A stretch of 64,000 nt of DNA from Streptomyces graminofaciens (lineage in GTDB: Bacteria; Actinomycetota; Actinomycetes; Streptomycetales; Streptomycetaceae). This document shows positions 20,848 to 53,433 of this stretch, in pieces. Positions within the stretch are counted from its first letter, which is position 1; every line of letters starts with the position of its first letter. The notes beneath the pieces were generated by a model. That model worked only from the letters and a program-made list of their open reading frames with translations, was not told the DNA's origin and did not search any database. The DNA is taken from the NCBI RefSeq assembly GCF_030294945.1, contig NZ_AP018448.1:4432001-4496000 (forward strand), written 5' to 3'. A program made the position numbers and the translations under genes.

Positions 20848-20863
20848 TCTGCTGGACCTCCAG

Positions 20864-22614: not shown

Positions 22615-22616
22615 GG

Positions 22617-23942: not shown

Positions 23943-24019
23943 CGTGCGCCTTTCGCCTTTCAAGAACGGGTGGTTCAGGGCAGGGCAGGATGCGGAACGA
24001 CTGTGCTCGTACGGGGTGT

Positions 24020-25057: not shown

Positions 25058-25065
25058 GTCAGGAT

Positions 25066-25079
25066 TGTGACCGGTCACA
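25066..25079. promoter_or_regulatory. LacI operator in the divergent LacI/GH36 region
   Basis: An exact second copy of TGTGACCGGTCACA, 27 bp (centre to centre) from the first, upstream of both the LacI gene and the GH36 gene. The pair could hold two dimers on nearly the same face of the helix. Confidence 0.78.
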
Positions 25080-25140
25080 CAGGAGTCGTCAAGAGACCGT
25101 AACGAGGGATTCACTCGAGCCGCCCAGGAAGGGAAGCGTC

Positions 25141-27516: not shown

Positions 27517-28263
27517 TCAACTGCTGCTGACGGTCAGGTTGTTGGTCCGGAAGTCCAGACCACCGGAGGACGACGTGATCTCGAAGCCGAACTGCACGTC
27601 GCCGATGGTCTCGTTGCCCATCCAGCCCTTGGTGTCCTTGATCCACTTCAGGATCGGGAGGATCTGGACCGTGCCGGAGGTGGAGTCCGAGGTGCGCAGG
27701 AAGGAGAAGACGTCCCAGTAGGTGCCGTCGGAGCGGGTGACCCGGCCCTTGTAGACGTTCCAGCTGTGGCCGCCGAGCGTCGCGCTGCCCTGGTAGGTGC
27801 CGAGCGCGCCGACATCGCCGTTGTAGTTGACCCACAGCATGATCTCGTAGTCGTAGTCCGTGTCCCAGACGTCGTACGAGGTGTTGTACGCGCCCGAGGA
27901 CGGGACCGTGACGTTGTACGTGCTGTTCAGCGAGCCCAGCGAGGTGATCGTCTTGTTGATCACCTTCTTGGAGTTGGGGTACGACTTGATGCCGCCGGTG
28001 TTGGGGTGGTTGGCCCAGACCCCCCAGTTCGTACCGGAGTTGGCCCAGATGCACTGGCTGCCGCCGCCGGAGCCCCAGATGTTGTTGTAGAGCGTGTAGC
28101 CGTTCAGGCTCGTGTTGCCCCACTGGTCACAGCTGTTCCAGACGGCGGCCGAGGCGGGGGCGGAGGCGAGGCCCACGATGGCGCCGAGCGCGAGCGCGGG
28201 GGGCAGCAGGACCTTGCCGATCCTGCTCAGCGTGCGGGTGCGGATGCGGGTGCTTGTTGCCAT
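27517..28263 (-). CDS. Secreted GH12 endo-glucanase / xyloglucanase
   Basis: A 248-residue secreted retaining endo-enzyme that cuts beta-1,4-glucan backbones. The Sec signal ends near ASAPASA-AVW at residue 40. The compact jelly-roll has the nucleophile Glu140 in DYEIMLWVNY and the acid/base Glu228 in FGFEITSSS. There is no binding module. GH12 enzymes act on cellulose or xyloglucan; the surrounding GH74, GH42, GH95 and transporter genes point to xyloglucan. It follows the GH95 gene by 52 bases on the same strand and is probably the last gene of the long operon starting at 39068. Confidence 0.9.
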   Translation of the reverse strand: MATSTRIRTRTLSRIGKVLLPPALALGAIVGLASAPASAAVWNSCDQWGNTSLNGYTLYNNIWGSGGGSQCIWANSGTNWGVWANHPNTGGIKSYPNSKKVINKTITSLGSLNSTYNVTVPSSGAYNTSYDVWDTDYDYEIMLWVNYNGDVGALGTYQGSATLGGHSWNVYKGRVTRSDGTYWDVFSFLRTSDSTSGTVQILPILKWIKDTKGWMGNETIGDVQFGFEITSSSGGLDFRTNNLTVSSS

Positions 28264-28315
28264 GGGGTGTCGGTTCCTTCCATGGGTGGGGGGAAATGCG
28301 GGGAATTGCGGTGAT

Positions 28316-30829
28316 CTACCACGCCCCCAGGGTGAGGGCGCGGTCTTCTCCGGCGACGAGGTCGAGCGGCTCGGCGCGGGTCGAAGTCCTGAGTTCGACG
28401 CGGCAGGTCCGGGTGGGGCGGATCACCGCGGTCATTTCGTGCGGGCTCCAGGTGAGGTCGAGTTCGGCCCCGAATCGCGTACGGACGCCGCACAGCCGGC
28501 CCGTCGGACACGCCCTCGGGAGCGCGGGCAGCAGCACCAGTCGGTCGGGGGTCGACTGCACCAGCATCTCGATCAGCACGGCGGGCAGGGTGTGCGCGGC
28601 GTCCGCGTTGTAGACGTCACGCTTCGGGTAGTGCGCGCTCATCAGGGAGGCGTGGAAGAAGTCCCCGTCGAGGACCTGGCCCAGCGCGTGCGCGACCCGT
28701 TCGCCGTCGCGCAGCCGGGCCGCGACGAGGGCGTGGTGCAGATGACCGTGGGCCGAGTCGTTCTCCGCGCCCCGGAGTTCGAGGGCCCGATGGGCGGCGG
28801 CCGCGAGGTCCGGGGTGTCGTACGGGTTGATCTCGTCGAGGGGCCAGACGCCGTACAGGTGACTGAGGTGACGGTGGTCGTAGGTGTCGTCGAGGCCGGG
28901 CCAGGCCCACTCGGCGAGGGCACCGTCGGCGTTGACCCGGTGGGGCGGCAGCCGGTCGGCGAGCGCGCGCCAGCGGTCCGCCCGCTCTGGCTGGTCGGGG
29001 TGGTACGCGGCGGCGGTGAGCAGGGCGTGCCGGGCGGCCGACAGGTCCATGGCCGCGTTGATCGCCCCCCAGCTCGCGTTCGCGGGACGGTTCTCGGGCG
29101 AGTAGGAGGGGACGACGACGATGTTTCCGTCGGTGTCGGTGCGGGTGAGAAAGTCCTCGTAGAACAGGGCGACTTCGGCGAGCGCGGAGGCGGTGCGCGG
29201 GTCGCGTTCGCCGCGGATCTCGTCGTGGTCGACGAGCGGCTTGAGCAGCCAGTCCGCGCCCGCCGTCCACAGGTGCAGCGGGTACTCGCGGCTGAAGTGG
29301 TACGTCAGGCCACTCTCGCCGTCGGAGTGCGGCGGTGCGACGACACCGCGGGCACCGAAGATCGCCCGGGCGTTGTCCCGCCAGTCGGCGAGCTGACCGT
29401 GGATCAGGGAAGCATGCGCCTCGGTGACCTCGGGCAGGGCGGCTGCCGCCGCGGAGGACGTCTGGAGGTTGAGGTTGGCATCGTTGGTGAACGCCCCCGC
29501 CCAGGCCGTGTTCCAGTCGCCGGTCCACAGGCCGACGAGGCGGGGCGGAAGCAGGCCGCTGGAGGAGAGTAGGTGGTAGCGACCGGCGGCGAAGAGGCGT
29601 TCGAGGAGGGCGGGGGTGTGGGGGTGGGGGTTTGAGTGGGGGTTTGAGTGGGGGTTCGAGTGGGGGCTCGAGTGGGAGTGGGTGTGGCGGAGGAGGTCGG
29701 AGCCGGGGAGGGAGCGTTCGTTTTGGTTGCGGGGGGCCGGGAACGAACCTTCGTTTTTGTTGTCAGCGTCACGGAACGAACCTTCGTTTTCGTTGGCCGC
29801 CCGGAACGAACCTTCGTTTTCGGCGCCACCACGGAACGAACCTTCGCTTTGCCCACCTCGACGCGAGAACGAACCTTCGTTTTCGCCCGCCCCGCCACCA
29901 CCCCCGAGTTCAAGCGACACCCGCCCATACGCCGGCCCATGCAGCGCCACATGCCGGTCCAGTAGCCAGGGCCAGTCATCCGCCTCCGCACCCTCGGGCA
30001 GCAACCCCCGCAGCCCCTGCCTCTCCGCCACCCCGTCCAGCTCGCCGGTGTGCCGTCGCACCCGGGTGAGCAGTAGCACCGCCTGGGCCCGTTCCACATG
30101 GACGCCGGGCGGGGTGAGTGTCGTGCGGCCGCCGGTGACGACGACGAGCGTGGTGCCGGTGTACGCGCGGTCGCTCCCCGGGTAGCGGGCGCGCAGGCTC
30201 AGCGACGCACCCTCGGGGGTGAGGACCGCACCGTGTCCGACCCTGAGGTCGGTGGGCGCGCTCGGCAGCCGGTGGTCCAGGTCGATGTCCAGGGTGAGCC
30301 GGGGTCCCGTGACGTGCTGGACGATCACGTCGTCGGCGCGTGAGACGAAGACCCGGCTGCGCCAGCCCTCGCAGGCCGCCTCGACGACTCCGGTGGTGAA
30401 GTCGACCGAGCGACGGTAGCCGCGCCGCCCGCTCCGTTCCGCATCCGCCCTTTCCGCACTTTCCGCACTTTCCACCCTCTCCGCCCGCCTCAGCCGCACC
30501 TGGAACGCGGGGTGGAAGGGCTGCACCCACTGCAACTCCCGCCCGTCCGTGAACCCTTCGGCGGCCGTGACGTCCCCGGCCAGCAGCCGGTCCTGCAGCG
30601 AGGCGAGTCCGTCGGCGAGCCGTGGCGGCCGAGCCCGTTCGCCGCCGTTGGGGCGTACGAGGGTGTGATGGTTGACGATGACACGGTCGTCGGTCGGGTC
30701 GCCGAACACCATCACGCCGTGTCGGCCGTTGCCGCTCAGGAAGGCGTCCTCCCAGCGGGCGGCCGGGGTCGGCTCCCAAGTGCCGTGCCGGGTGGCTCTG
30801 TCGGTCGGGTTCGAGTTGTCCATGGTCAT
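28316..30829 (-). CDS. GH95 alpha-L-fucosidase family protein
   Basis: An 837-residue cytoplasmic enzyme expected to remove terminal alpha-1,2-linked fucose. The N-terminal beta domain starts AARWEDAFLSGNGRHGVMVFG; the alpha/alpha barrel includes RLVGLWTGDWNTAWAGAFTNDANLNLQ, YHFSREYPLHLWTAGADWLLKPL and PSYSPENRPANASWGAINAAMDL, all typical of GH95. Some family members act on galactose instead, so fucose is the likely but not certain substrate. In the middle (about residues 315-400) is a long non-family insert of NEGSF repeats and a His/Ser/Asn/Pro run. The ATG at 30829 overlaps the GH42 stop by ATGA. Confidence 0.86.
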   Translation of the reverse strand: MTMDNSNPTDRATRHGTWEPTPAARWEDAFLSGNGRHGVMVFGDPTDDRVIVNHHTLVRPNGGERARPPRLADGLASLQDRLLAGDVTAAEGFTDGRELQWVQPFHPAFQVRLRRAERVESAESAERADAERSGRRGYRRSVDFTTGVVEAACEGWRSRVFVSRADDVIVQHVTGPRLTLDIDLDHRLPSAPTDLRVGHGAVLTPEGASLSLRARYPGSDRAYTGTTLVVVTGGRTTLTPPGVHVERAQAVLLLTRVRRHTGELDGVAERQGLRGLLPEGAEADDWPWLLDRHVALHGPAYGRVSLELGGGGGAGENEGSFSRRGGQSEGSFRGGAENEGSFRAANENEGSFRDADNKNEGSFPAPRNQNERSLPGSDLLRHTHSHSSPHSNPHSNPHSNPHPHTPALLERLFAAGRYHLLSSSGLLPPRLVGLWTGDWNTAWAGAFTNDANLNLQTSSAAAAALPEVTEAHASLIHGQLADWRDNARAIFGARGVVAPPHSDGESGLTYHFSREYPLHLWTAGADWLLKPLVDHDEIRGERDPRTASALAEVALFYEDFLTRTDTDGNIVVVPSYSPENRPANASWGAINAAMDLSAARHALLTAAAYHPDQPERADRWRALADRLPPHRVNADGALAEWAWPGLDDTYDHRHLSHLYGVWPLDEINPYDTPDLAAAAHRALELRGAENDSAHGHLHHALVAARLRDGERVAHALGQVLDGDFFHASLMSAHYPKRDVYNADAAHTLPAVLIEMLVQSTPDRLVLLPALPRACPTGRLCGVRTRFGAELDLTWSPHEMTAVIRPTRTCRVELRTSTRAEPLDLVAGEDRALTLGAW
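29622..29680. repeat. Simple tandem repeat in the GH95 gene
   Basis: GGGGGTTTGAGT-like units of 12 bp repeat about four to five times and encode the HSNPHSNPHSNPH run on the minus strand. Confidence 0.8.
29742..29881. repeat. Five-copy phased palindrome array inside the GH95 gene
   Basis: AACGAACCTTCGTT (a 14-bp inverted repeat, AACGAA-CC-TTCGTT) starts at 29742, 29775, 29805, 29835 (last base pair altered) and 29868. Spacings are 33, 30, 30 and 33 bp, near three helical turns and always whole codons. Each copy encodes NEGSF or a close variant. Confidence 0.85.
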
Positions 30830-32904
30830 GATGTGAGCACCGCCACGCCGTACCGGCCGAGGGTCAGCAAATCGGTGACCTCGGCGCCGGTCAGCAGGTC
30901 GCGGTGGGTGCCCGGTACGTCGACGGTGACCTCGTCCCGGCCGTGGTTGAGCACGAACAGCGCCTCGCCCCGCCGTACCGCCTCGACCCCGTCGGGCAGC
31001 CCGTCGAGCACCGGCCGCACCCCCGCGTCCGCCGCCACCCGTGTCAACAGGGCGCGCAGATCGGCGGGTTCGGGCAGCGTGGAGACGTACCAGGCACGCC
31101 CCTTCCGCAGCACCGCCGGAAGCCCGTCGAGTTCACCACCCTTGTACGGGGCGACCTCGTCCGCGTCCGCCGCCTCGATCTCCTCGGACCACAAGGTCCC
31201 CCGGAAACTTCCCTGGAAGCCCTCTTCAGAGCCCCTTTGAGAGCCCTCGGGGAAACCGTCGCAGTCGACGCTCTCCCCGGCGTCCAGCGGCCACCACTCG
31301 TGCAGGGTGCGGATGCCGAACAGTTCGCGCAGGCGCGCGTCCATGCCTCCGGGCCGTACCCGGTCGTCCTCGTCGGCGACGCCGGTCAGGAAGCCGCAGA
31401 CGAGGGTGCCGCCGTCGCGTACGTACGCGAGGAGGTTCTCGATCGCCGTGTCCGTGAGCAGGTAGAGCTGAGGTACGACGACGAGTCCGTACCCGGAGAG
31501 GTCGTGCTCGGGGTGCGCGAAGGCCGTGGTGAGGTGGGCCTCCCAGAGGGCGCGGTGCCAGGACCGTACGATCTGTGGAAGGTCCACCTCGGACGAGAGG
31601 CGGCCGTCCTGCGCGCCGGCCCACCAGGAGTGCCAGTCGAACAGCAGCGCCACGGAGGAGTCGATGTGCTGTCCCGTCACCTCGTGGCCGATGGCGGCGA
31701 GTTCGGCGCCGAGCTGCTTGACCTCCTGGAACGTGCGCCCATGCTCGCCCGCGTGGCTGACCATGCCCGAGTGGAACTTCTCCGAGCCCTGCCGCGACTG
31801 CCGCCACTGGAAGTAGCAGACGGCGTCGGCGCCCCGGGCGACGGCCTGGAGGGACCAGAGGCGGTTGAGCCCGCGTGGTTTGGGGTGGTTGACGCCACGC
31901 CAGTTGACGGGTCCCGCAGCCTGTTCCATGAGCATCCAGGGGCCGCCGCCCGCCTGCGAGCGGGTCATGTCCTGGACGAGAGCCCCGTTCTGCGCGCCGA
32001 ACGGATCACGCGGATCCGGATAGATGTCGACGGAGACGACGTCCTCCTCCTCCGCCCAGCGCCACGCGTCCTGCCCCACCCACATCGGCATGAAGTTGGT
32101 GGTGACCGGGATGTGCGGGGTGTGCCGGCGGACGATGTCGCGCTCGGCGAGGTAGCACTCCAGGAGGGCGTCGGAGGTGAACCGCTTGAAGTCGAGTACG
32201 TGGCTGGGGTTGCGCATGTAGTGGGCGCGGCGCGGGGGCAGCACCTCGTACCAGTCGCCGTACCCCTGGCTCCAGAAGGCCGTGCCCCAGGCGGTGTTGA
32301 GGGCGTCGAGCGTGCCGTACCTGTCCTGGAGCCAGCTGCGGAACGCGGCCGCGGCCTCGTCGCCCCAGTCGTAGGTGCAGTACTCGTTGTTGATGTGCCA
32401 CATGGTGAGGGCCGGGTGGCCGCCGTAGCGGGCGGCGAGGTCCTCGGTGATGGCGGCGGCGTAGCGGCGGTAGGTGGCGCTGGAGTGTGCGAAGTGCTGG
32501 CGGGAGCCCCACCACTCGATCTGCCCGTTCTCGTCGCGTGGCAGGGTCTCGGGGTGCAGGCGGCCCATCCACGGGGGCGGGGACGAGGTGGGCGTGGCGA
32601 GGACGACGCCGATGCCGTGGGCGTGCATCAGGTCCATCAGCCGGTCCAGCCAGCCGAACTCGCGTTCTCCCGGGCGGGGTTCGAGCTTGGCCCAGGAGAA
32701 GACGCCGAGGGTGACGGAGTTGACGCCGGCCTCCTTCATGAGGCGTACGTCGTCCTGCCAGACCTCCTCGGGCCACTGCTCGGGGTTGTAGTCGCCGCCG
32801 AAGAGGACGCGGCCCCGGGTGGCGTGGGCGAGGGTGGGGCGCGTGGCGTCGCCCCGGCCGGGCGGGGTGGTGCGCTTCGGGTCCGGCTGTGTCGCCTCCG
32901 GCAT
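30826..32904 (-). CDS. GH42 beta-galactosidase
   Basis: A 692-residue cytoplasmic retaining beta-galactosidase. The barrel begins GRVLFGGDYNPEQWPEEVW, the acid/base Glu174 is in WHINNEYCTYDWG, and the nucleophile Glu327 is in GPWMLMEQAAGPVNWRG. A trimerisation domain follows (ALLFDWHSWWAGAQDGR) and a small beta domain ends the protein. Near residue 560 a low-complexity stretch (EGSQRGSEEGFQGSFRG) interrupts the usual sequence. Its start overlaps the GH74 stop by one base (TGATG) and its end overlaps the GH95 start, so the three enzymes are translationally coupled. Likely job: remove galactose from xyloglucan side chains. Confidence 0.92.
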   Translation of the reverse strand: MPEATQPDPKRTTPPGRGDATRPTLAHATRGRVLFGGDYNPEQWPEEVWQDDVRLMKEAGVNSVTLGVFSWAKLEPRPGEREFGWLDRLMDLMHAHGIGVVLATPTSSPPPWMGRLHPETLPRDENGQIEWWGSRQHFAHSSATYRRYAAAITEDLAARYGGHPALTMWHINNEYCTYDWGDEAAAAFRSWLQDRYGTLDALNTAWGTAFWSQGYGDWYEVLPPRRAHYMRNPSHVLDFKRFTSDALLECYLAERDIVRRHTPHIPVTTNFMPMWVGQDAWRWAEEEDVVSVDIYPDPRDPFGAQNGALVQDMTRSQAGGGPWMLMEQAAGPVNWRGVNHPKPRGLNRLWSLQAVARGADAVCYFQWRQSRQGSEKFHSGMVSHAGEHGRTFQEVKQLGAELAAIGHEVTGQHIDSSVALLFDWHSWWAGAQDGRLSSEVDLPQIVRSWHRALWEAHLTTAFAHPEHDLSGYGLVVVPQLYLLTDTAIENLLAYVRDGGTLVCGFLTGVADEDDRVRPGGMDARLRELFGIRTLHEWWPLDAGESVDCDGFPEGSQRGSEEGFQGSFRGTLWSEEIEAADADEVAPYKGGELDGLPAVLRKGRAWYVSTLPEPADLRALLTRVAADAGVRPVLDGLPDGVEAVRRGEALFVLNHGRDEVTVDVPGTHRDLLTGAEVTDLLTLGRYGVAVLTS

Positions 32905-35126
32905 CAGACCGGCTCCCCGTACTGGATGCCGCGCCCGTTCGTCGCCAGGTACACACGGCCGTACACACGCGGGTCGCCGATGATGATCTCGCCGGTCCAG
33001 CCCCACTGGTGGGCGTCGTCGTTGATGCGGGTCCAGGTCCTGGCGCCGTCGTCGGAGCGGTAGACGGCGGTGATGGTCTCGGTCGAGCCGACCTGGTAGA
33101 TCGCCGGGTAGTCGGCGCCGTGGGCGGCCTTGCCGAAGCCGAGGGTGTACGAGGCCCAGCAGCTGTCGACCTTCGAGAAGCTCGCGCCGCCGTCGGTGGA
33201 GCGGTACAGCCCGTTCCATTTCACGCTCAGCCACAGGTCACCGGTGCGTCCGGGGGCCGCGACCAGCTTGAACTGGGTGTCACCCTTGGGCAGTCCGGTC
33301 GCACGGGCCGTGAACGAACGGCCACTGTCAGTGCTGGCGTATAGCGTTCCTGTGTCGGTGTCGTATGCGTAGAAGAGCGTCGGGTCGGCCGGGTCGGCGA
33401 CCGGCGTGGCGCCCTTCGGGAAGGAGGAGACCTCGGACCAGGTCGCGCCGTTGTCGGTGGAGCGGTGGGCTGCGTACTTCGTGCCGTCCCAGTGCACGAA
33501 GGACCACAGCAGCGCGCTGCCGTCGGCGTTGGTGGCGATCGGCCCCGGTGCGTTCTTGGCGATGTCGGGCTGGGCCTTGAAGGGCGCCCAGGTCTGCCCG
33601 CCGTCGTTGGAGTAGGCGCCGTTGCCGTTGTCGCCCCAGCCGGTGCGGACCACGTACGACGGCTTCGCCGAGGCCTGGGCCAGCCCCGTCGCCGACCCGA
33701 ACACGGGGTTCGACGCCATGCCTCGTGACGGGGACGCCGTGAGCCGCTCGTGGTACATCGTGCCGATGTCCCCGAGTCCGCTGATCAGGTGTGCCTCTCC
33801 GACCGGAGGCGAGATCAGCTGGCGCACGGACGTCTCCTCCAGGCCCCGGATCTGCGGCGCCCAGTGCTTGAGGTCCCGGGTGCCGTAGAGGGTCGCGCCG
33901 GTGCCGTACACGATGTGCTTCGAGTCGTACGGGTCGAGGGCGACCGCCTGGATCCACCAGCCGAACTTCGGTTTGTCGTTGCCCCACTTGAGATAAGGAG
34001 TCTCGGACACGTCGAAGACAGCGGAGTCCTTGAGGGACGTCCAGGTACGGCCGCCGTTGGTGGACCGGAAGACCGTGTCGACCTCCGTCCAGCGGTTGTT
34101 GGTGGAGACGATCACCGTGCCGGGGCGGCAGGCGTCGATGGCGACCCCGCCGTAGCCGAAGGCGTCGGTGGAGCCGCCGGTCGTCGTGCCGCCCGGCTTC
34201 ACGGGGGTCACGTCGGTCCACTTGCCGGTGGTGGTGCGGAGCTTGTGCACACTGCCGTCGGACTGGCCGTTGGGGCCGGGCGCGTCGGCGTACGTCAGGT
34301 ACAGCTCACGGGTGTGCTTGTCGTACGCGGCGCGGATCGGGACCTTGGCGGAGGTGCCGGTGGGCTGTCCGGGGACGGCCTCCCAGGTGGCGCCGTCGCT
34401 GGTCCGGTAGAGGTTGGCGGAGGTGCCGTCGCCGTCGCCCCAGCCGGCGTAGAGGGTGCGGCCGGCGGCCACGAGCAGGGTGACGCCCTGACCGGTGGCG
34501 CTGGGGGTCGCCGGGAAGCCTGTCGCCTTCGCCCAGGTGGCGCCCCGGTCGGTCGACTTGAGCAGGCCGTCGTGTCGGGTGCCCAGCCACAGGGTGTCGC
34601 TGTCGCGCGGGTCGACGAGGAGGCGCTCGCCCGCGCCCCGGCCGTCCTCGTTGGCGCCGAGCTTCACGGTGAGGTCGGTGCGGGACCAGGTGGCGCCGCG
34701 GTCGTCGGAGCGGAGGATCGCGCCGTTGCCGGCCCAGGACTGGGCGTAGGTGCCGAGGGCGAGGTAGAGGCGGTTCGGGTGGGCGGGGTCGATGGCGATG
34801 GCCTCCACACCGAGGAGGTTCCAGTCGTCCCAGCCGAGGTGGTCGGTCAGCGGGGTCCAGCGGGCCTTGCGGTCGTCCCAGCGGTAGGCGCCGCCGATGT
34901 CCGTGCGGGCGTAGGCGAGGCCCCGCGTCGTCGGGTGGAAGAGGATGCCGGTGACGAAGCCGGTGCCGCCGATCACGGCGGTGCGCCATCGGTATGCCGT
35001 GGCGGCGGCGTCGGCGTCGACTTCCGCGGCGTGGGCGGGGGTCTCCAGCGCGGGGAGGGCGGTGAGCGCGGCGGCGGCCGCGGTTCCGGCGAGTACGGAG
35101 CGACGGCTCGGCTGGGGCGTGCGCAT
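32904..35126 (-). CDS. Secreted GH74 xyloglucanase
   Basis: A 740-residue endo- or oligo-xyloglucanase built from two seven-bladed beta propellers. The signal is of Tat type (PSRRSVLAGTAAAAALTALP). The first propeller has RWRTAVIGGTGFVTGILFHP and AYARTDIGGAYRWDD, with the catalytic-type aspartate in TDIGG; repeated sialidase-like Asp-box strands such as SDDRGATWSRTD, STDRGATWAK and STNGGRTWTS recur through the protein. There is no carbohydrate-binding module. GH74 proteins act almost exclusively on xyloglucan, so this gene is the main evidence for the substrate of the locus. ATG 35126 opens the enzyme part of the operon, 239 bases after the second permease gene. Confidence 0.93.
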   Translation of the reverse strand: MRTPQPSRRSVLAGTAAAAALTALPALETPAHAAEVDADAAATAYRWRTAVIGGTGFVTGILFHPTTRGLAYARTDIGGAYRWDDRKARWTPLTDHLGWDDWNLLGVEAIAIDPAHPNRLYLALGTYAQSWAGNGAILRSDDRGATWSRTDLTVKLGANEDGRGAGERLLVDPRDSDTLWLGTRHDGLLKSTDRGATWAKATGFPATPSATGQGVTLLVAAGRTLYAGWGDGDGTSANLYRTSDGATWEAVPGQPTGTSAKVPIRAAYDKHTRELYLTYADAPGPNGQSDGSVHKLRTTTGKWTDVTPVKPGGTTTGGSTDAFGYGGVAIDACRPGTVIVSTNNRWTEVDTVFRSTNGGRTWTSLKDSAVFDVSETPYLKWGNDKPKFGWWIQAVALDPYDSKHIVYGTGATLYGTRDLKHWAPQIRGLEETSVRQLISPPVGEAHLISGLGDIGTMYHERLTASPSRGMASNPVFGSATGLAQASAKPSYVVRTGWGDNGNGAYSNDGGQTWAPFKAQPDIAKNAPGPIATNADGSALLWSFVHWDGTKYAAHRSTDNGATWSEVSSFPKGATPVADPADPTLFYAYDTDTGTLYASTDSGRSFTARATGLPKGDTQFKLVAAPGRTGDLWLSVKWNGLYRSTDGGASFSKVDSCWASYTLGFGKAAHGADYPAIYQVGSTETITAVYRSDDGARTWTRINDDAHQWGWTGEIIIGDPRVYGRVYLATNGRGIQYGEPV

Positions 35127-35365
35127 GACATACCTCGTTTTACGGGGAGGGTGTGCGGGTGTGGTCGCCCAGAAGCTCGGTCGATCCGGTTCATCGGCGA
35201 CTGCGGGTCATGTGTGGCGGGTCGCGCAGTTTCCCGCGCCTCTGAAAAGCACGGGGCGCAGCCCCGGCCGCAGAGCACCGGGCGGAGAGTTTCGCTGGGG
35301 CCCGCCGTACCCGGCCGGGTGACAGGCACGGCCGGGTGCGGCGGGGTCGGTGGGGCGGCCGGGGG
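35127..35365. other. Spacer between transporter and GH74 genes
   Basis: It contains a copy of the dispersed element (35219-35243, GGTCGCGCAGTTTCCCGCGC). No palindromic operator of the TCGAAGCGCTTCGA type and no gene is seen, so GH74 is either read through from the transporter genes or has an unrecognised promoter. Confidence 0.5.
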
Positions 35366-36319
35366 TCAGCCCTTGACCGCGCCGGTGAGCATGCCCTTCT
35401 TGAAGTGTTTCTGGACGAAGGGCGAGAGGACCGCGACCGGGAGCAGGGCCATCACCATGACCGCCATCTGGATGGCGATCGGGGAGAGCTGGCCGGTGTT
35501 GATCTGGGCGGAGAGGCCGACCGGGCGTTCCTGTTTCTGGACGAGCTGGATCATGACGTTCTGCAGCGGCATCATGTCCTGGTCGGTGAGGTAGATGGAG
35601 GCGTTGAACCACGCGCTCCAGTAGCCGACCGCGTAGAACAGGGCGATGACCGCGAGGACGGCCCTCGACAGCGGCATCACGATCTTCCACAGGATGCGCC
35701 AGTCTCCGGCGCCGTCGATGCGGGCGCTGTCGATCAGCTCCGGCGAGATGCCCATGAAGAACGAGCGCAGGACCAGGATGTTGAAGACGCTCACGGCGCT
35801 GGGGAGGATCAGCGCGAGGTAGGTGTCGGTGAGGCCGAGGGCCTGGACCAGCAGATAGGTCGGGATGAGGCCGGCGCCGAAGAACATCGTGGCGAGCAGG
35901 GTCATCAGGATCCAGCGGTGGCCGAGAGAGCCGACGCGGGAGAGACCGTAGGCGCACAGGACCGAGACGGTCATGCTGAACAGGGTGCCGACGAGCGTGA
36001 CGCCCACGCTGACCAGCGCCGCCGTCTGGACCTGGCCGCCGCCGAGGAGTTCCCGGTAGGCGACGAAGGTGATGCTCTTGGGGATGACGACCAGGCCGCC
36101 CGCCTCGTCGATGGTCTTCTTCGTCTGGAGGCTGGTGACGATGACGATCCAGAGGGGGAAGAGGATCGCGAAGCAGGCGAAGCCGAGGGCGAGTCCCTTG
36201 CCCGCGAGTCCGGCCTTGGAGGGTTCCTCCTCCCAGGTCGGGCGGGGCGGGGCCGCCCAGCGGCCGGGCTTCCGCACCGTCGGCCGCTCGTCGGCCGGCT
36301 TGTCGAGGACGGCGCTCAT
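35366..36319 (-). CDS. Carbohydrate ABC transporter permease (YtcP/MalG type)
   Basis: A 317-residue inner-membrane permease of the CUT1 family, with a proline-rich cytoplasmic N-terminus of about 50 residues. The EAA loop is SPELIDSARIDGAGDWRILWKIVMPLSRA, and the C-terminus KHFKKGMLTGAVKG is the standard ending for YtcP-like partners of LplB. The ATG at 36319 overlaps the LplB-type stop by ATGA. It should import the oligosaccharides released by GH74 and GH12. Confidence 0.92.
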   Translation of the reverse strand: MSAVLDKPADERPTVRKPGRWAAPPRPTWEEEPSKAGLAGKGLALGFACFAILFPLWIVIVTSLQTKKTIDEAGGLVVIPKSITFVAYRELLGGGQVQTAALVSVGVTLVGTLFSMTVSVLCAYGLSRVGSLGHRWILMTLLATMFFGAGLIPTYLLVQALGLTDTYLALILPSAVSVFNILVLRSFFMGISPELIDSARIDGAGDWRILWKIVMPLSRAVLAVIALFYAVGYWSAWFNASIYLTDQDMMPLQNVMIQLVQKQERPVGLSAQINTGQLSPIAIQMAVMVMALLPVAVLSPFVQKHFKKGMLTGAVKG

Positions 36320-37353
36320 TTCTTGTACACCCCCTGCTCACCCATGAGATGGGCGACCTTGTTGGCGGTCAGCACCAGTGCGAGGCCGACCACGCCCTTG
36401 ATGAGGCCTGCGGCGGCGGCGTAGCTGAAGTCCTGGTTGCGGATACCGTTCCACCACACATAGGTGTCGAGGACGTCGGAGGCGTCGACGCCCACCGCCT
36501 GCCGTTGGAGCAGCAGTTGTTCGAAGCCGACGGTCAGGGCGTCGCCGACGCGCAGCACCAGCAGCAGGGCGATCACCGGGCGCAGGGCGGGCAGCGTGAT
36601 GTGCCACATGCGCCGCCAGCGTCCGGCGCCGTCCATGGCGGCGGCCTCGTAGAGGTCGTTGGAGACGGAGGAGAGCGCGGCGAGGAAGACGATGATGCCC
36701 CAGCCTGCGTCCTTCCAGATGCTCTCGGCGGTGACCAGGTACTTGAAGATCTCCGGGTCGGTCATCAGGTCGAAGCCCTCGTAGCCGTGTTGGCGGAGGG
36801 TCTGCGCGATGATGCCCGCGCCACCGAAGATCTGCATGAAGACGGTGACGACGAGGACCCAGGAGAAGAAGTGCGGGAGGTACATGATCGCCTGGGCGAC
36901 CGCCCGGACCCGGGGCCTGACCACGCTGTTGATGAGCAGCGCGAGCAAAATCGGGATCGGGAAGAACAGGACGAGCTGGAGGAAGAACAGCACGAAGGTG
37001 TTCTGCACCGCGTGCCAGAAGGCCGAGTCCTCGAAGATCCTCTCGAACTGCTCGAAGCCGATCCAGGGGCTCTGGAAAATGGCGACGAAGCCGTTCTCGC
37101 TGAGGTACGGGTCGTAGTCCTGGAAGGCGACCACATTGCCGAGGATCGGTATGTAGTTGAAGACCAGGATGAGCAGCACCGTCGGCAGCGTCATCAGGAT
37201 CAGCGTGCGGTCACGCCGGAATCTGAGCCGGAGACTCAGTTTCCCCGCGCGTTTGCCGCCCCGGGAGCCGGACCCGGCGCCGTCGGACGGCGCCGGGTTC
37301 TTCTCGGGGGTCTTCGCCTCGGCCCTGGACCGGGGCACCGTGCTGTGGGACAC
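36316..37353 (-). CDS. Carbohydrate ABC transporter permease (LplB type)
   Basis: A 345-residue inner-membrane permease. A basic N-terminal tail of about 50 residues precedes RTLILMTLPTVLLILVFNYIPI. The typical LplB stretches follow: FQDYDPYLSENGFVAIFQSP, WIGFEQFERIF, YLPHFFSWVLVVTVFMQIFG, and the EAA loop YEAAAMDGAGRWRRMWHITLPALRP. It starts at GTG 37353, 26 bases after the binding-protein gene. No ATPase is encoded nearby. Confidence 0.92.
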   Translation of the reverse strand: MSHSTVPRSRAEAKTPEKNPAPSDGAGSGSRGGKRAGKLSLRLRFRRDRTLILMTLPTVLLILVFNYIPILGNVVAFQDYDPYLSENGFVAIFQSPWIGFEQFERIFEDSAFWHAVQNTFVLFFLQLVLFFPIPILLALLINSVVRPRVRAVAQAIMYLPHFFSWVLVVTVFMQIFGGAGIIAQTLRQHGYEGFDLMTDPEIFKYLVTAESIWKDAGWGIIVFLAALSSVSNDLYEAAAMDGAGRWRRMWHITLPALRPVIALLLVLRVGDALTVGFEQLLLQRQAVGVDASDVLDTYVWWNGIRNQDFSYAAAAGLIKGVVGLALVLTANKVAHLMGEQGVYKK

Positions 37354-37379
37354 GGCGTTCTCCTTGCCTCAGCCCCGGG

Positions 37380-39068
37380 TCAGTTCGCCGAACCGGTCTC
37401 GTCGAGCAGCTTCTTGTACCAGTCGCGCAGCCCGTCGCCGCCCTTGCTCTTCCAGTCGGACACCGCCTGCTGGACGTCGCTGATCTTCTTGCGGCCGCGC
37501 ACGACGTCGTCCTCCAACTGCTCGAAGTTGTCGGCGAGGTTGGCCCAGCGGTTCGGTTCGGTGACGGTCAGCCCGAAGAAGGAGGTCTTCTTGGTGAAGG
37601 CGCCCATGCGCTGCTGCCACTCGACGATGCCCTTGGTGACCTCGGGGAAGTCGGGGTAGGCGACGTACGGGGCGGGGTTGCCGGTGTAGTCGTAGGCGCC
37701 GTTGACCTCGTTGACGCCCGTGGTGCTCTTGACCGGCAGGCCCTTCTTCATGTCGTAGTCCGTGCCCTCGACGCCGTAGGCGGTGAGCATGAACTCCTTG
37801 GTGCCGTAAGGCGCGGCGCAGTAGTTGCAGAGGGCGAGGAAGTCCTTGATCTGTTGCTTGGTCGCCTTCTTGCTGATGAAGGTGAAGATGTTGGCGGGCT
37901 GGACCGCCCACAGGGTGGGGTCGCCGCCGTCGGGGCCGAAGATGTCGAACGCGGCCATGTCGAAGTCGGAGTTCTGGGTGGCCTGTTCGGAGACCGAGCC
38001 CCACCAGGCGGAGATGTTCCCGTTGAAGACCAGGGACTGACCGGCCGTGAACCGGTTCCTGGCGTCGCCACCCGCCTTGCCGGAGACCGCGTCCGGGTGG
38101 ACCACATCGGCCGCGTAGAGCTTGCGCGTCCACTCCAGGGCCTCGAGGAACTCCTCGGTCTCGATGCGATTGACCAGCTTGCCGTCGACCAGGTTCCACC
38201 ACAGCGCCTTGTCGCTGCCGGGGAAGACACCGTAGATGTTGAACGCCGTCCACTTCATGTCGTCGCAGGCCCACACCTTCGACTTGGCGTCGGTGGCCTC
38301 CTTCGCCCAGGACAGGAACTCGTCGGGGCTGGTCGGGACGCTGTAGCCCTTCTTCTTGAAGATGTCCCTGCGGTACATGGGCGCGATGTCGGTGACGTAC
38401 GGGGCGGGGAACGGGATCGCGCGCAGTTGGCCGCCGAAGATGCCGCGCTGCCAGGCCTCGGAGGGGACGGCCGCGAGGTTCGGGTAGTCCTTGACCTTGT
38501 CGCCGGAGAGGTACGGGCCGAGGTCGGCGAACTTGGCGTTGATGGCGCTGGGTATCTTGCCCATCAGGTTCCAGCCGGGCACGACCACGACGTCGGGGAT
38601 GTCGCTGGAGGCGAGGACCGCGCCGAGCTTCTGGTCGTAGGTGACGCCGTCCTGGTTCTGCCAGGTCACCTCTACGCCCGCGGCCTCGTTCATCGCCGAG
38701 TAGTACGGGTTGTCGGCCTTCGGCGGGGTGCCCCAGAACGGGGACATGATCTTCAGCTTGCCGCCGCTGCCGAGCTTCTTCGGCACCGAGGTCTTCAGGT
38801 CGGCGGTGGCGATCGCCTTGCTGAAGCCGGCGGGTGCGCCGTTCTTCGCCGGGATGTCGGGCGCCACGACGCTCGACGCGACGAACGTCGGAAGGATCTT
38901 CTGCGCGTCCTTGCCCGACGTCGTGCCCTCCTTGCGTCCTTCCTGCGAGCCGCCGCAGGCGGACAGCAGCGGCACTCCCCCCGCGACCACTGCGGCGGCG
39001 ACCGCCGTGGAGGCGAGGAAGCTTCTCCGGCTGGGCTCGGAGGAGGTGGTGGCGGAGTTCGGCGTCAT
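37380..39068 (-). CDS. Extracellular sugar-binding lipoprotein (LplA type, Tat exported)
   Basis: A 562-residue binding protein, longer than MalE-like proteins and typical of LplA/YtcQ partners of LplB-YtcP. The signal combines a twin arginine (PSRRSFLASTAVAAA) with a lipobox (LLSAC), so it is probably exported folded and then lipidated. Mature-domain features include LKIMSPFWGTPPKADNPYY, PDVVVVPGWNLMGKIP, and WACDDMKWTAFNIYGVFPGS. As the first gene of the operon it lies next to the operator region 39069-39454. Its ligand is proposed, from the enzymes, to be xyloglucan oligosaccharides. Confidence 0.92.
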   Translation of the reverse strand: MTPNSATTSSEPSRRSFLASTAVAAAVVAGGVPLLSACGGSQEGRKEGTTSGKDAQKILPTFVASSVVAPDIPAKNGAPAGFSKAIATADLKTSVPKKLGSGGKLKIMSPFWGTPPKADNPYYSAMNEAAGVEVTWQNQDGVTYDQKLGAVLASSDIPDVVVVPGWNLMGKIPSAINAKFADLGPYLSGDKVKDYPNLAAVPSEAWQRGIFGGQLRAIPFPAPYVTDIAPMYRRDIFKKKGYSVPTSPDEFLSWAKEATDAKSKVWACDDMKWTAFNIYGVFPGSDKALWWNLVDGKLVNRIETEEFLEALEWTRKLYAADVVHPDAVSGKAGGDARNRFTAGQSLVFNGNISAWWGSVSEQATQNSDFDMAAFDIFGPDGGDPTLWAVQPANIFTFISKKATKQQIKDFLALCNYCAAPYGTKEFMLTAYGVEGTDYDMKKGLPVKSTTGVNEVNGAYDYTGNPAPYVAYPDFPEVTKGIVEWQQRMGAFTKKTSFFGLTVTEPNRWANLADNFEQLEDDVVRGRKKISDVQQAVSDWKSKGGDGLRDWYKKLLDETGSAN

Positions 39069-39199
39069 TGCGTCAACCCTTCATGGCGCACACCAGGACA
39101 CCCGGCGGTGGCCGTCGGCTGCGGTGTCTTGAGTGGGACTGGCTGTGCTGAAGCGATGAACCGGAGGGATGTGAGCACGCGAAGCGTTTCCCTCCGCAG

Positions 39200-39213
39200 T
39201 CGAAGCGCTTCGA
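39200..39213. promoter_or_regulatory. LacI-type operator on the transporter side
   Basis: TCGAAGCGCTTCGA, a perfect 14-bp palindrome identical to the core of the site before the LacI gene at 9998; 132 bases upstream of the binding-protein start. Confidence 0.75.
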
Positions 39214-39348
39214 TGTTGCTGCGAGGTTAAGTGAACGACCGGGGGTGCACAAGGGTCGATTCCAAGATTGACCCGCGGAATGAAAGCGGTTGAGAGGACC
39301 CGAACTGCCAGTTCCGACCCCCGAAATGACAGTGTTTATGACGATGAG

Positions 39349-39364
39349 GAAACGGATCCGTTTC
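39349..39364. promoter_or_regulatory. Second type of perfect palindrome, GAAACGGATCCGTTTC
   Basis: A perfect 16-bp palindrome with a different core from the LacI operator, 12 bases before the TTGACA of the GH3 gene. It could bind another regulator. Confidence 0.6.
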
Positions 39365-39375
39365 AGCTTGGTCTC

Positions 39376-39418
39376 TTGACACCCACCCCACCGTCGATCG
39401 AGCATCGAAGCGCTTCGA
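39376..39418 (+). promoter_or_regulatory. GH3 promoter with overlapping LacI-type operator
   Basis: TTGACA (39376-39381) is followed 18 bp later by a weak -10, GAGCAT (39400-39405), and the exact palindrome TCGAAGCGCTTCGA (39405-39418) covers the expected transcription start. This layout suits direct repression. Confidence 0.6.
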
Positions 39419-39454
39419 AAGCGCCTCGCCGCTCCACCTCAAAGGGATCCCCAC

Positions 39455-42301
39455 GTGACCGCACAGACGACGCCCACGCCGCCTTTCCGCGATCCGCAGC
39501 TGCCGCTCGCGAAGCGCATCGACGATCTTCTCCAGCGGCTCACGCTCGACGAGAAGATCGCGTTCCTGCACCAGTTCGCACCCGCCGTCGACCGCCTCGG
39601 CGTCGCCGCGTTCCGCACCGGCCAGGAGGCCCTGCACGGCGTCGCCTGGATGGGCCCCGCGACGGTGTTCCCGCAGGCCGTCGGCCTCGGCGCGACCTGG
39701 AACGACGACCTCGTCCGCCGCGTCGGCGAGGCCGTGTCGACGGAGGTCCGCGCCATGCGCGCCCGCGACGACCGCGTCGGCCTCAACGTCTGGTCCCCCA
39801 CGGTGAACCTGCTGCGCCACCCGCTGTGGGGCCGCAACGAGGAGGGCTACTCCGAGGACCCCAAGCTGACCTCGGCCATCGCGACCGCGTACACCCGCGG
39901 CCTGCGCGGCGACCACCCCACGTACTGGCGTACGGCCCCCGTGCTCAAGCACTGGCTGGCGCACAACAACGAGACCGACCGCTCCGTCACGTCCTCCTCG
40001 GTCCGCCCGCGCGTCCTCCACGAGTACGACCTGCGCGCCTTCCGCGAGACGGTCGAGGCGGGCGCGGTGGCCGGCGTCATGCCCGCGTACAACCTGGTCA
40101 ACGGCCGCCCCAACCATGTCTCGCCGTATCTGTCCGAGCATCTGCGCACCTGGACCGACGAGGAGCTGCTGGTCTGCTCGGACGCGGGCGCGCCCTCCAA
40201 CCTGGTCGACTCCGAGCACTACTTCGACACCCACGAGGAGGCCACGGCGGCCTCGCTGCGCGCCGGTGTCGACAGCTTCACCGACCACGGCACGGACGGC
40301 TCGACGATGGCCGAACGCATCACGAAGGCCCATGAGCAGGGCCTGCTGACCGAGGCGGACATCGACACGGCGGTCCGCCGCCAGCTCTCGGTCCGCTTCC
40401 GCCTCGGCGAGTTCGACCCCGACCTCGACCCGTACGGCGACAGCAAGGACTTCGACACCCCGGCGCACCGCGCCCTCGCCCAGGAGGCCGCCGAGCAGGC
40501 GATCGTGCTGCTGAAGAACGACAGCCTGCTGCCGTTCGCCGAGGGCACCCGGATCGCCGTGGTCGGCCTTCTCGCCGACGAGTGCAAGCTCGACTGGTAC
40601 AGCGGCACCCTCATCCACCGCTCGACCCCGCTCGAAGGCCTGTACGACCGGTTCGGCGCCGAGCGTGTGACCTTCGCGGAGGGCGTGGACCGCGTACGAC
40701 TGCGCACCTCCACGGGCGCGTATCTGCGTGTGGCCGATGCCGTCGAAGCCGGCGACGAGGTGCGGGGCGCGGCGGGCGCCCTCGACCCGGCGCTGCTCGC
40801 GGGCCGCACGGACCTGCCGCCACTGACGATCGACGCGGCCGGCACCGAGCTGGCGATGGTCGACTGGGGCGAGGGCGTGCTCACCTTCCGCGCACCGGAC
40901 GGCCGCTATCTCTCGGTCGCCGAGGACGGCTACCTGCGGGCCTCCGCCGACCAGCCGGGCGGCTGGGTGATCCAGGAGACATTCCATCTGGAACGCCATG
41001 AAACCCATGAGAACGGTCACCTCCTCAAGCACGCAGGGACGGGCCAGTACGTGTCGGTCGCCGCCGACGGAGTGAAGGTTGCCGCCGAGAACGCGGAAAT
41101 CTTCGAGCTCATCGTGACCCAGCCCGGCGAGGAGGCCGTGGCCAGGGTCGCCGCCGAGGCCGACGTGGTCGTCGTGTTCGCGGGCAACGACCCGCACATC
41201 AACGGCCGCGAGACGGAGGACCGCCCGACCCTGGCCCTCCCCGACCACCAGGAACGCCTGCTGCGCGCGGCCCGCGCCGCCAACCCGAACACGGCGCTGG
41301 TCCTGGTCTCGGCCTACCCGTACGCCGTCGATCCCGCGGAGATCCCGGCCGTCCTGTGGACCGCGCACGGCGGCCAGGCCGCGGGCACGGCTCTGGCGCG
41401 CGCCCTCGCCGGTGACGTCTCCCCCGCGGGCCGCCTCCCGCAGACCTGGTACGCCTCCGACGCCGACCTGCCCGGTCTCCTCGACTACGACGTGATCGGC
41501 GCCCGCCAGACGTATCTGTACTTCGAGGGCACCCCCTTGTTCCCCTTCGGCCACGGCCTGTCCTACGCGCAGTTCGCGTACGGGAACCTTGAGGCGCGGG
41601 TGGCCGGGAACGAGGTGACGGTCTCCTTCACGGTCACCAACACGGGCGGGGTGACGGCGGACGAGGTGGCCCAGCTCTATGTCCGGGCGGTGGAGCCGTC
41701 GGTGCCGCGTCCTCGCCGGGAGCTGCTCGGCCACCGCCGGGTCACCCTGGCGGCGGGCGCATCGACCGAGCTGACGTTCCGGCTCCCGCTGTCGGCGTTC
41801 GAGTTCTGGGACGTGGCGCACGGCCGGTGGCGCCTGGAGCCCGGCGCGTACGAGCTGCTGGTCGGCGCGTCGAGCGAGGACGTGCGGGTCCGTACGACGA
41901 TCCTCCTGGCGGGCGAGCCCGCGGCCCCACGCCCGGTCGTCGCGCACGGCCTGAACGGCGCCGACTTCGACGAGCAGCGCGGCACGGAGATCGTCGACCG
42001 CACGAAGGCGTCGGGCGACGCGGTGACCGCGGTGGAGGGCGGCTCGGGTGGGCTGCTCTTCCACGACTGCGACTTCGGCCCAGGCGTCACCGAGGTGACG
42101 GTGGAGGTCGCGGGCGAGGGCACGGTCGAGTTCTCGCTGAACGGCGGCCCGGTGCTGGCGACGCTGACATCGGCCCCGGCCACGGCGGACCCGTACACGT
42201 ACACGACCGTGCGCGGCGCCGTCTCGGCCGCCGGGGTGCACGACGTCCACCTCAAGCTGCGCGGCCCGCTGCGGCTCGCGCGCGTCGGCTTCTCCGGTTG
42301 A
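39455..42301 (+). CDS. GH3 beta-glucosidase with inserted fascin-like and C-terminal CBM-like domains
   Basis: A 948-residue cytoplasmic retaining glycosidase. The N-terminal barrel starts DPQLPLAKRIDDLLQRLTLDEK and has NVWSPTVNLLRHPLWGRNEEGYSED and the nucleophile Asp243 in LLVCSDAGAPSNL. The C-terminal alpha/beta sandwich follows (EQAIVLLKNDSLLPF). At about residues 410-550 it is interrupted by a beta-trefoil, fascin-like insert (VRLRTSTGAYLRVADAV, FRAPDGRYLSVAEDGYLRAS, GTGQYVSVAADGVKVAA). A fibronectin-type domain (EVAQLYVRAVEPSVPRPRRE) and a C-terminal CBM6-like domain end it. GTG 39455 has AAAGGGA upstream. It probably trims glucose or xylose from imported oligosaccharides. Confidence 0.9.
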   Translation: MTAQTTPTPPFRDPQLPLAKRIDDLLQRLTLDEKIAFLHQFAPAVDRLGVAAFRTGQEALHGVAWMGPATVFPQAVGLGATWNDDLVRRVGEAVSTEVRAMRARDDRVGLNVWSPTVNLLRHPLWGRNEEGYSEDPKLTSAIATAYTRGLRGDHPTYWRTAPVLKHWLAHNNETDRSVTSSSVRPRVLHEYDLRAFRETVEAGAVAGVMPAYNLVNGRPNHVSPYLSEHLRTWTDEELLVCSDAGAPSNLVDSEHYFDTHEEATAASLRAGVDSFTDHGTDGSTMAERITKAHEQGLLTEADIDTAVRRQLSVRFRLGEFDPDLDPYGDSKDFDTPAHRALAQEAAEQAIVLLKNDSLLPFAEGTRIAVVGLLADECKLDWYSGTLIHRSTPLEGLYDRFGAERVTFAEGVDRVRLRTSTGAYLRVADAVEAGDEVRGAAGALDPALLAGRTDLPPLTIDAAGTELAMVDWGEGVLTFRAPDGRYLSVAEDGYLRASADQPGGWVIQETFHLERHETHENGHLLKHAGTGQYVSVAADGVKVAAENAEIFELIVTQPGEEAVARVAAEADVVVVFAGNDPHINGRETEDRPTLALPDHQERLLRAARAANPNTALVLVSAYPYAVDPAEIPAVLWTAHGGQAAGTALARALAGDVSPAGRLPQTWYASDADLPGLLDYDVIGARQTYLYFEGTPLFPFGHGLSYAQFAYGNLEARVAGNEVTVSFTVTNTGGVTADEVAQLYVRAVEPSVPRPRRELLGHRRVTLAAGASTELTFRLPLSAFEFWDVAHGRWRLEPGAYELLVGASSEDVRVRTTILLAGEPAAPRPVVAHGLNGADFDEQRGTEIVDRTKASGDAVTAVEGGSGGLLFHDCDFGPGVTEVTVEVAGEGTVEFSLNGGPVLATLTSAPATADPYTYTTVRGAVSAAGVHDVHLKLRGPLRLARVGFSG

Positions 42302-43893: not shown

Positions 43894-44030
43894 GGTCGAG
43901 TCCCGGCCCTTCGGTGGTTGATGCTTCGGCTTCCGGGTCAACCGTAGGGCCGGGGCGGCGAGCGGTCGTTTGTCCGGTGCGTATGAGTGGGGGTGGGGGG
44001 TGTGCCGGATTGGCCTGGTCGTGGGGGGCG

Positions 44031-44063
44031 AGTTCCCCACGCCCCTTCAGTGGCGCGGGGACT
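44031..44063. repeat. Dispersed intergenic hairpin element
   Basis: AGTTCCCCACGCC and GGCGCGGGGACT pair across a short loop. It belongs to the same family as 9776-9818 and lies in the 287-bp spacer between aldehyde dehydrogenase and the PucR gene, which otherwise holds no gene. Confidence 0.55.
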
Positions 44064-44180
44064 GCGCGAACGGGGCGAAGGGTCTTGGGCGGAGCCCCGG
44101 CTCCTTGGCCCCGGCGGGGTCGAAGGGGCAGCCGCCCCTGAGGAGAGGACGGGTAGGGGCGGCGGGGGCGAGAAAACCCC

Positions 44181-45878: not shown

Positions 45879-46099
45879 ACGGCCTTCAGTTCGGCGTCAG
45901 GGCGGTGTGGCGACGGTCGGGGTCCGGAGTCGGCTCGGCGTTCGGCGTCGGGGCAAGCCGCATGGCCGCGGCTCGTGTGACTCCCGTGACGACGGTGACG
46001 ACAGTGGGCCCTTTCGCCACCATGTATGAACGACCTGTGCCGATTGTGCCTCACTGTACGGTCCCGCACCCCGAACGGCTCAGCCGCACGCCAGACCGC

Positions 46100-48565: not shown

Positions 48566-48851
48566 CGCGCTTGCCCCCTGACCAGCCGTTCCGTCCACCA
48601 TCAGCGAGCCAATCTAACGCTCTCGCAAGGGGAGTTCACCGTTTACGCGGCCGTGCGGACCGGGAAGCCCCTCGCCGACGACCTGTCGGCATCGTGGACG
48701 ACACCCCATGAGTGCCATGTCCACCGAGGACAACCGGCGCCGCCGACAACGCCCACATGGAGCATGCCCACCTCTCGTCCCCGGTCCTAGCCTGCGAGAA
48801 AAGAAGGCAAGCGTCCGCACAGCCCGGTCCGTGAAACCCCAGGAGCCCCAC

Positions 48852-50186: not shown

Positions 50187-50246
50187 GCCCCCGCTCGCCC
50201 ACCGCGCATACGGAATCCCCCATCCGCCTCCGACGTCCCACGCTTC

Positions 50247-50280
50247 CCGGAACCGGAATCCCGCCCGGATTCCGGTCCGG
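50247..50280 (+). terminator. Hairpin after gabT
   Basis: CCGGAACCGGAATCC pairs with GGATTCCGGTCCGG (one base bulged) about 60 bases after the gabT stop. Confidence 0.65.
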
Positions 50281-53393: not shown

Positions 53394-53433
53394 GATTTCA
53401 ACTCCCTACAGAGCCAATTCGGGTCGCCGAGGC

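Follow-up and report, generated by a model that had tools for sequence, protein, structure and literature searches.

Xyloglucan is one of the major polymers of plant cell walls, and among the leading decomposers in soil are Streptomyces. The xyloglucan locus of Xanthomonas citri reportedly carries genes for glycoside hydrolases (GH) of families GH74, GH31 and GH95 together, with an outer-membrane TonB-dependent receptor. The loci of Bacteroides ovatus and Cellvibrio japonicus are said to supply the same side-chain activities, with outer-membrane receptors and periplasmic trimming. In the Ruminiclostridium cellulolyticum cluster, xyloglucan oligosaccharides are reportedly imported by an ATP-binding cassette (ABC) transporter and then attacked by cytoplasmic GH31, GH42 and GH3 enzymes, the endo-enzymes being cellulosomal and the regulation two-component; a GH95 gene is not known from that cluster. 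Single Streptomyces GH74 xyloglucanases (S. avermitilis, S. coelicolor) have reportedly been characterised. The present analysis concerns a window of 64,000 nucleotides (positions 4432001-4496000 of the 11.6-Mb single-contig genome of Streptomyces graminofaciens), which very probably carries a LacI-controlled xyloglucan regulon whose products would cut the polymer outside the cell, import the fragments and break them down inside.

This kind of system is already known, and the locus is a solid example of it and not a new type. It resembles that of X. citri in its GH95, which has Xac1774 as nearest fold, and in its GH31 and GH74, among whose PDB matches are 7kmp and 7kn8, respectively (both presumably from X. 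citri). It differs in possessing a CUT1 ABC transporter with a lipoprotein solute-binding protein (SBP), a GH42, a GH12 and a LacI regulator. Gram-positive ABC import is common to this locus and the R. cellulolyticum cluster, whereas GH74 and GH12 of the Streptomyces locus are free secreted enzymes. BoGH31A (5jou) and Xyl31A (2xvg, which we take to be from C. japonicus) are PDB relatives of the locus GH31. The S. avermitilis and S. coelicolor GH74 enzymes are of the same genus and family and were single enzymes, whereas the gene studied here stands in an operon with a transporter, a regulator and an operator.

Pfam searches of the window returned all the families named in a sequence-only reading of this DNA (GH12, GH95, GH42, GH74, two CUT1 permeases, SBP and GH31, with GH3 on the opposing strand), and also LacI. 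Starting at the SBP promoter, the minus-strand genes follow one another as SBP, permA, permB, GH74, GH42, GH95 and GH12, with GH3 divergent (Table 1). The same reading described a run with overlapping stops and starts. This held at three of the six junctions: GH74/GH42, where the GH42 ATG overlaps the GH74 stop with one base in common (TGATG), and GH42/GH95 and permA/permB, each with a 4-base ATGA overlap. The other three are gaps of 26 bp (SBP-permA), 239 bp (permB-GH74) and 52 bp (GH95-GH12). A 20-bp repeat, GGCGCGGGRAACTGCGCGAC, with 0-1 mismatch, was found at 1637, 9780 and 35221 (0.07 expected), the last copy lying inside the permB-GH74 gap. Export signals were assigned by reading the sequences: Sec-like for GH12, Tat for GH74 (Pfam TAT_signal slightly under cut-off) and Tat-like with LLSACGG for SBP, while none was seen in GH95, GH42, GH3 or GH31. 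The gene set called complete was recovered, and that word is too strong since the locus has no ATPase gene and a second, YicI-like GH31 lies 1.1 Mb away. No ABC ATPase gene was found among the transporter genes of the operon; OB_MalK gave three matches in the genome, two of them outside the window. The SBP and the two permeases in one operon constitute a putative dedicated uptake system, a CUT1 oligosaccharide importer presumably served by a distant ATPase.

The genes are linked by an operator. The exact 14-bp palindrome TCGAAGCGCTTCGA occurs three times in the window, upstream of LacI1-GH31 and twice in the SBP/GH3 gap, and the supposition that GH31 has an operator in common with the main run was correct. 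The regulator gene is accordingly found beside conserved palindromic operators at its predicted target promoters, and a putative alpha-xylosidase gene bears the same operator as the putative endo-xyloglucanase genes, which suggests co-regulation. The search began from a guess, the pattern TGAAAGCGCTTNCA with three mismatches, which led to the true palindrome and by itself was not significant (10 matches, 5.4 expected, 10 being reached in 12 of 100 shuffles). Another palindrome, GAAACGGATCCGTTTC at 39349, was rejected as a second operator: it had one match in the window, at least one was also found in 14 of 100 shuffles, and it was not conserved in the intergenic alignment.

The conservation of the locus was determined from a scan with GH95, in which 143 stretches were confirmed and the best 80 (79 Streptomyces, one Kitasatospora) were kept. 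Gene presence was counted at 55% identity or more, contig ends being uncorrected. GH42 was present in 76 of the 80 loci, GH12 in 74, permB in 71, permA, SBP and GH3 in 69 each, LacI1 in 68, GH74 in 66 (that of L095 being a short fragment) and GH31 in 63. Wherever SBP and GH3 were both present (69 loci), the 700 bp upstream of SBP contained two exact operators, no more and no fewer; of the 68 loci with LacI1, 67 have one exact operator in the 400 bp before that gene. Altogether 208 exact TCGAAGCGCTTCGA sites were counted in 1.63 Mb against 0.02 expected under an order-4 Markov model; the 80 loci are kin, and this total measures conservation rather than independent events. The palindrome is found in 78 loci, and the runner-up perfect 14-bp palindrome in 24. 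Chance sharing of the operator by GH31 was rejected on these numbers and the conserved positions. An alignment of the SBP/GH3 gap (the window and 16 loci) revealed conserved promoter-like blocks flanking each operator site, GTGTCAAG (TTGACAC towards GH3) and CTTAACC beside the SBP-side copy; one locus, L064, has the SBP-side site only. This layout would fit a repressor acting on two divergent promoters.

GH31 had been placed 17 kb from the main run, which is about right: the stops of GH31 and GH12 are 14.4 kb apart. Of the 80 loci, 62 possess both genes, at a distance of only 58 bp to 4.1 kb, whereas in the window a GH36/LacI2/SBP2/permease/GH39-like module and a few other genes lie between them. 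GH31 is therefore considered part of the locus, probably displaced here by the inserted module.

The whole genome contains six exact TCGAAGCGCTTCGA sites, and three of these fall beyond the limits of the window. The YicI-like GH31 gene (L013) has one of the three 90 bp before its annotated start. A second (L012, position 8764) lies 44 bp after a gene for GH5 with carbohydrate-binding modules (CBM), GH5-CBM_X2-CBM46, and about 0.6 kb before a LacI/SBP group. With one mismatch allowed there were eight sites against five for a control pattern, and since these counts are close, weight was given only to exact sites conserved in position.

Based on the exact palindrome, 22 sites were found in three genomes (G038, G041 and G046) belonging to a second family (f3) of this order, compared with one for the control pattern. 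Fifteen of them lie in stretches fetched for inspection, and 12 of the 15 adjoin genes of the xyloglucan set (Table 1). Since GH12 and GH74 lie apart from the transporter genes in these genomes, neighbourhood alone cannot explain the common site.

Table 1. Features of the window, and genes of the xyloglucan set at exact operator sites of f3
Feature	Position or locus	Strand	Basis
Operator TCGAAGCGCTTCGA upstream of LacI1-GH31	9876-9889		exact
Degenerate second operator copy TCGAAGCGCTTAAA adjoining LacI1 start	9967-9980		sequence match
LacI1, LacI-family regulator, predicted xyloglucan repressor	9986-11011	+	Pfam LacI and Peripla_BP_3; in 68/80 related loci
GH31 alpha-xylosidase (predicted), MeXyl31 type, no signal peptide seen	11066-13144	+	Pfam, PDB
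Adjacent module, separately regulated: GH39-like secreted enzyme with CBMs, two permeases, SBP2, LacI2, GH36	18274-27456		Pfam, PDB
GH12 secreted endo-glucanase, predicted xyloglucanase	27517-28263	-	Pfam, PDB
GH95, predicted intracellular alpha-L-fucosidase, divergent, accessory	28316-30829	-	Pfam, fold match
GH42 beta-galactosidase (predicted), no signal peptide seen	30826-32904	-	Pfam (longer open reading frame), PDB
GH74 xyloglucanase (predicted), Tat-like signal	32904-35126	-	Pfam Sortilin/BNR, PDB
CUT1-type permease B (permB)	35366-36319	-	Pfam BPD_transp_1
CUT1-type permease A (permA)	36316-37353	-	Pfam BPD_transp_1
SBP, Tat-like lipoprotein, predicted xyloglucan-oligosaccharide binder	37380-39068	-	Pfam SBP_bac_8
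Operator copy nearer SBP operon	39200-39213		exact
Operator copy 36 bp upstream of GH3 start codon	39405-39418		exact
GH3 beta-glycosidase, C-terminal CBM6, no signal peptide seen	39455-42301	+	Pfam, PDB
GH42/GH3 pair with LacI1; YicI-like GH31 beside transporter genes	L151		exact sites, f3
LacI1; SBP/GH3 gap	L153		exact sites, f3
GH3/SBP gap; LacI1 with MeXyl31-type GH31	L155		exact sites, f3
GH12, other cluster genes not in stretch	L152		exact site, f3
GH12, other cluster genes not in stretch; second site touches 5' end of match	L156		exact sites, f3
GH74; site at 5' end of frame	L160		exact site, f3

The LacI1 start is possibly the ATG at 9998.

GH74 and GH12 both have the sequence characters of endo-xyloglucanases: the best PDB match of GH74 is xyloglucanase 6p2o (E 2.8e-148), and those of GH12 are 6sdu and 2jem/2jen, the latter presumably the B. 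licheniformis xyloglucanase. The two catalytic Glu motifs of GH12 are found in 72 of 74 and 74 of 74 orthologues. For GH31 the best PDB match is alpha-xylosidase MeXyl31 (5zn6; E 4e-203, 680 bits), followed by another alpha-xylosidase (346 bits), whereas the first alpha-glucosidases by name are maltase-glucoamylase (214.2 bits) and then "alpha-glucosidase" (179.8 bits); on these scores GH31 is closer to alpha-xylosidases than to alpha-glucosidases. Both of its catalytic motifs are present in all 63 orthologues. GH42 matches GH42 beta-galactosidases in the PDB (E 9.6e-161, query read from 32907), and the matches of GH3 are mixed, beta-glucosidase and beta-xylosidase. The nearest folds of SBP are the alginate-oligosaccharide binders AlgQ1/AlgQ2 (15% identity, mean pLDDT of the model 69.4); the modelled fold fits an oligosaccharide ligand and does not name it.

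Several observations weigh against a common xyloglucan function. Among the binding protein and enzymes, SBP has no close sequence relative in the PDB, and the top NCBIfam score of GH3 is to a beta-xylosidase model, far under its cut-off. GH74 is absent from seven of the 70 loci with permB and GH42, and among the 68 loci with GH95 and LacI1, three have no GH12 and six no GH31. L035 and L037 are without GH74, GH12 and GH31; L133 and L134 have the same reduced set, with a YicI-like GH31 1.4-2.3 kb from GH3. Of the exact sites, the third one outside the window in the S. graminofaciens genome falls within a DHDPS coding frame (L014:8954). In f3 one site is at another transporter (L159, 7373) and two in L154 are outside the set, one followed after 363 bp by a weak GH12 match (28% identity) and the other unassigned (one of the two at 5091). 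Operator copies stand, too, before transporters that have GH51-like and rhamnogalacturonan-lyase-like genes nearby (Pfam; L157:7426), a layout which L158 (7322) repeats by position. Finally, of 30 loci with the YicI-like GH31 (query included), only 12 show an exact site in the 300 bp before the gene.

Judged from these positions, the operator is not exclusive to xyloglucan genes. The sites near the GH51-like and rhamnogalacturonan-lyase-like genes would favour the explanation that the genes are mere neighbours without common control and that the palindrome belongs to a regulator for another sugar. This is very improbable: the operators keep their positions before SBP (69 of 69 loci) and LacI1 (67 of 68), and 68 of the 80 loci contain LacI1, with an operator of its own, together with the GH genes. 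Alternatively, the locus could serve hemicelluloses or beta-glucans more broadly (mixed-linkage glucan, galactosylated glucans), with GH74 and GH12 as general endoglucanases. In favour of this, GH12 includes endoglucanases and a mixed-linkage glucanase, GH74 is lacking in some loci, and in L090 (with one mismatch), L095 and L171 the operator lies between LacI1 and a GH5 gene upstream on the same strand. This reading is nevertheless improbable, as 63 of the 80 loci have a GH31 of alpha-xylosidase type, which adjoins the same operator in f3 as well, and mixed-linkage glucan offers no obvious task for GH42 or GH95. The GH5 products of those three loci are 53-55% identical to the GH5-CBM_X2-CBM46 protein of S. 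graminofaciens (L012:6789-8720), whose surroundings have a similar order (GH5, operator, another LacI).

The upstream site of the YicI-like GH31 follows lineage: it is present in four of the ten closest loci (Streptomyces), in all eight f3 loci and in none of the other 12 (two with a one-mismatch site). The predicted membership of this gene in the regulon is therefore lineage-dependent. In three divergent Streptomyces loci (L133, L134 and L135) it is situated 27 bp to 2.3 kb from GH3.

GH95 requires separate treatment. It has the catalytic domain of the family (PF22124, 191.5 bits, cut-off 27), and the nearest fold found by Foldseek is 7kmq, the alpha-L-1,2-fucosidase Xac1774 of X. citri, at 24% identity and E 3.7e-30 (mean pLDDT of the model 62.7, with active-site segments of such low confidence that residues there are too weakly modelled to be judged). 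The motifs holding E579 and D743, which we take, by analogy with Bifidobacterium bifidum AfcA, to be the catalytic Glu and Asp acting with an Asn pair, are found in 80 of 80 orthologues. Position 450 is Asp, where 7kmq, 2rdy and 4ufc have Asn in alignments; it corresponds to the first Asn of an N-x-N motif, and among the 80 orthologues 66 have Asp there, 12 have Asn and two gave no clear residue. The protein has a repeat insertion near residues 312-400, and in-frame tandem repeats at 29624-29892 expand its linker (NEGSF and PHSN-like units). A second GH95 group, about 50-55% identical to the locus GH95, is found in several Streptomyces genomes, in some cases in addition to the orthologue at another place.

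The distribution of GH95 was surveyed in 296 Streptomyces genomes, with an SBP match defined by E <= 1e-60 and a GH95 orthologue by a best segment with E <= 1.6e-148. An SBP relative was found in 148 and a GH95 orthologue in 115: both in 113, SBP only in 35, GH95 only in two and neither in 146, counts which are approximate as only three to four candidates were scored per genome and four of the 35 SBP-only matches are weak (1e-61 to 1e-65). Nine of the 35 SBP-only loci, hand-picked, were fetched, and all nine carry two exact operators upstream of SBP. Eight of them keep the rest of the operon, except that GH12 is absent from L172. In the other seven GH12 starts 84-219 bp after the GH42 stop, whereas 70 GH95-positive loci show a distance of 2.2-3.3 kb. 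For the remaining locus, L168, neither GH74 nor GH42 nor GH12 was found beside the transporter. Since the remainder of the operon persists in eight of these nine hand-picked loci, GH95 is, on comparison of loci, an accessory gene, and a fucosylated substrate can be claimed at most for strains that possess it.

The sequence-only reading had deduced fucosylated (dicot-type) xyloglucan from the fucosidase. The family assignment stands; fucosylation is plausible and unproven, the GH95 being divergent and lacking in some similar loci. The substrate might instead be xyloglucan that is not specifically fucosylated, with GH95 removing another alpha-L-linked sugar, for example L-galactose, or serving a minor side chain. 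The low identity to the nearest structure, Asp450, the presence of 4ufc (BACOVA_03438, presumably an alpha-L-galactosidase) among the matches and the 35 of 148 SBP-bearing genomes in which the orthologue was not found speak for this, as does the fact that no FucI-type fucose isomerase (PF07881) was found in the S. graminofaciens genome. The best fold match to an alpha-L-1,2-fucosidase and the invariant E579 and D743 motifs speak against it, and eight GH29 matches in the genome make fucose use plausible; on balance this alternative is rather unlikely.

The other claims of that reading, a xyloglucan substrate with cutting outside, import and trimming inside, are well supported on comparative grounds by synteny, the recurring operator and the match of GH31 to a solved alpha-xylosidase. 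From the computed gene content, synteny, family assignments and operator conservation we infer a scheme that covers the substrate of each enzyme, the transported ligand, the inducer, the regulator that binds the operator and its action as a repressor rather than an activator. Secreted GH74 and GH12 would cut xyloglucan to oligosaccharides, which the Tat-exported lipoprotein and the CUT1 permease pair would import with energy from an ATPase (probably MsiK-like) whose gene lies elsewhere. Inside the cell, GH95, in strains that have it, would take off an alpha-L-linked terminal sugar, most likely fucose, and GH42, GH31 and GH3 would release galactose, xylose and backbone glucose, respectively. 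LacI1 would repress all three promoters, its own included, via TCGAAGCGCTTCGA, until released by an imported xyloglucan fragment, perhaps isoprimeverose. Tentatively, this regulon may be seen as widespread in Streptomyces and as importing intact, still fucosylated oligosaccharides, GH95 being a presence/absence cassette that sorts species by the xyloglucan type they finish and the Asn/Asp switch reflecting a shift in its specificity or base catalysis.

The module between GH31 and GH12, left out of the sequence-only reading, was considered as a further member of the regulon and rejected, having its own LacI and its own palindrome, TGTGACCGGTCACA (LacI2 operators at 25039 and 25066); all six of its genes were found after GH12 in only seven of the 80 loci. 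Its secreted enzyme, whose family we take to be GH39, matches PDB entries 8uwt and 5u22, with CBM35/CBM6 and a C-terminal region related to 2wz8, and in-frame tandem repeats at 26020-26170 expand the GH36 linker (GSGSG-like). The module, whose transporter is of the CUT1 type, is perhaps a system for a galactose-rich glycan. On the other side of the locus, 42448-59523 is a likely amine/polyamine catabolism and transport group with two aldehyde dehydrogenases, a PucR regulator, a class-III aminotransferase, an FAD oxidoreductase and an ABC transporter.

This analysis adds to the known systems the regulator-operator assignment and its conservation in a second family, the displacement of GH31, a further GH31 at a distance and the accessory status of GH95. 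Other members of the regulon can be predicted from the operator, the distant YicI-like GH31 being one, and strains whose loci naturally have or lack GH95 could be compared to test what fucose removal contributes. A conserved regulon with a defined 14-bp operator would provide a direct handle on xyloglucan use by Streptomyces.

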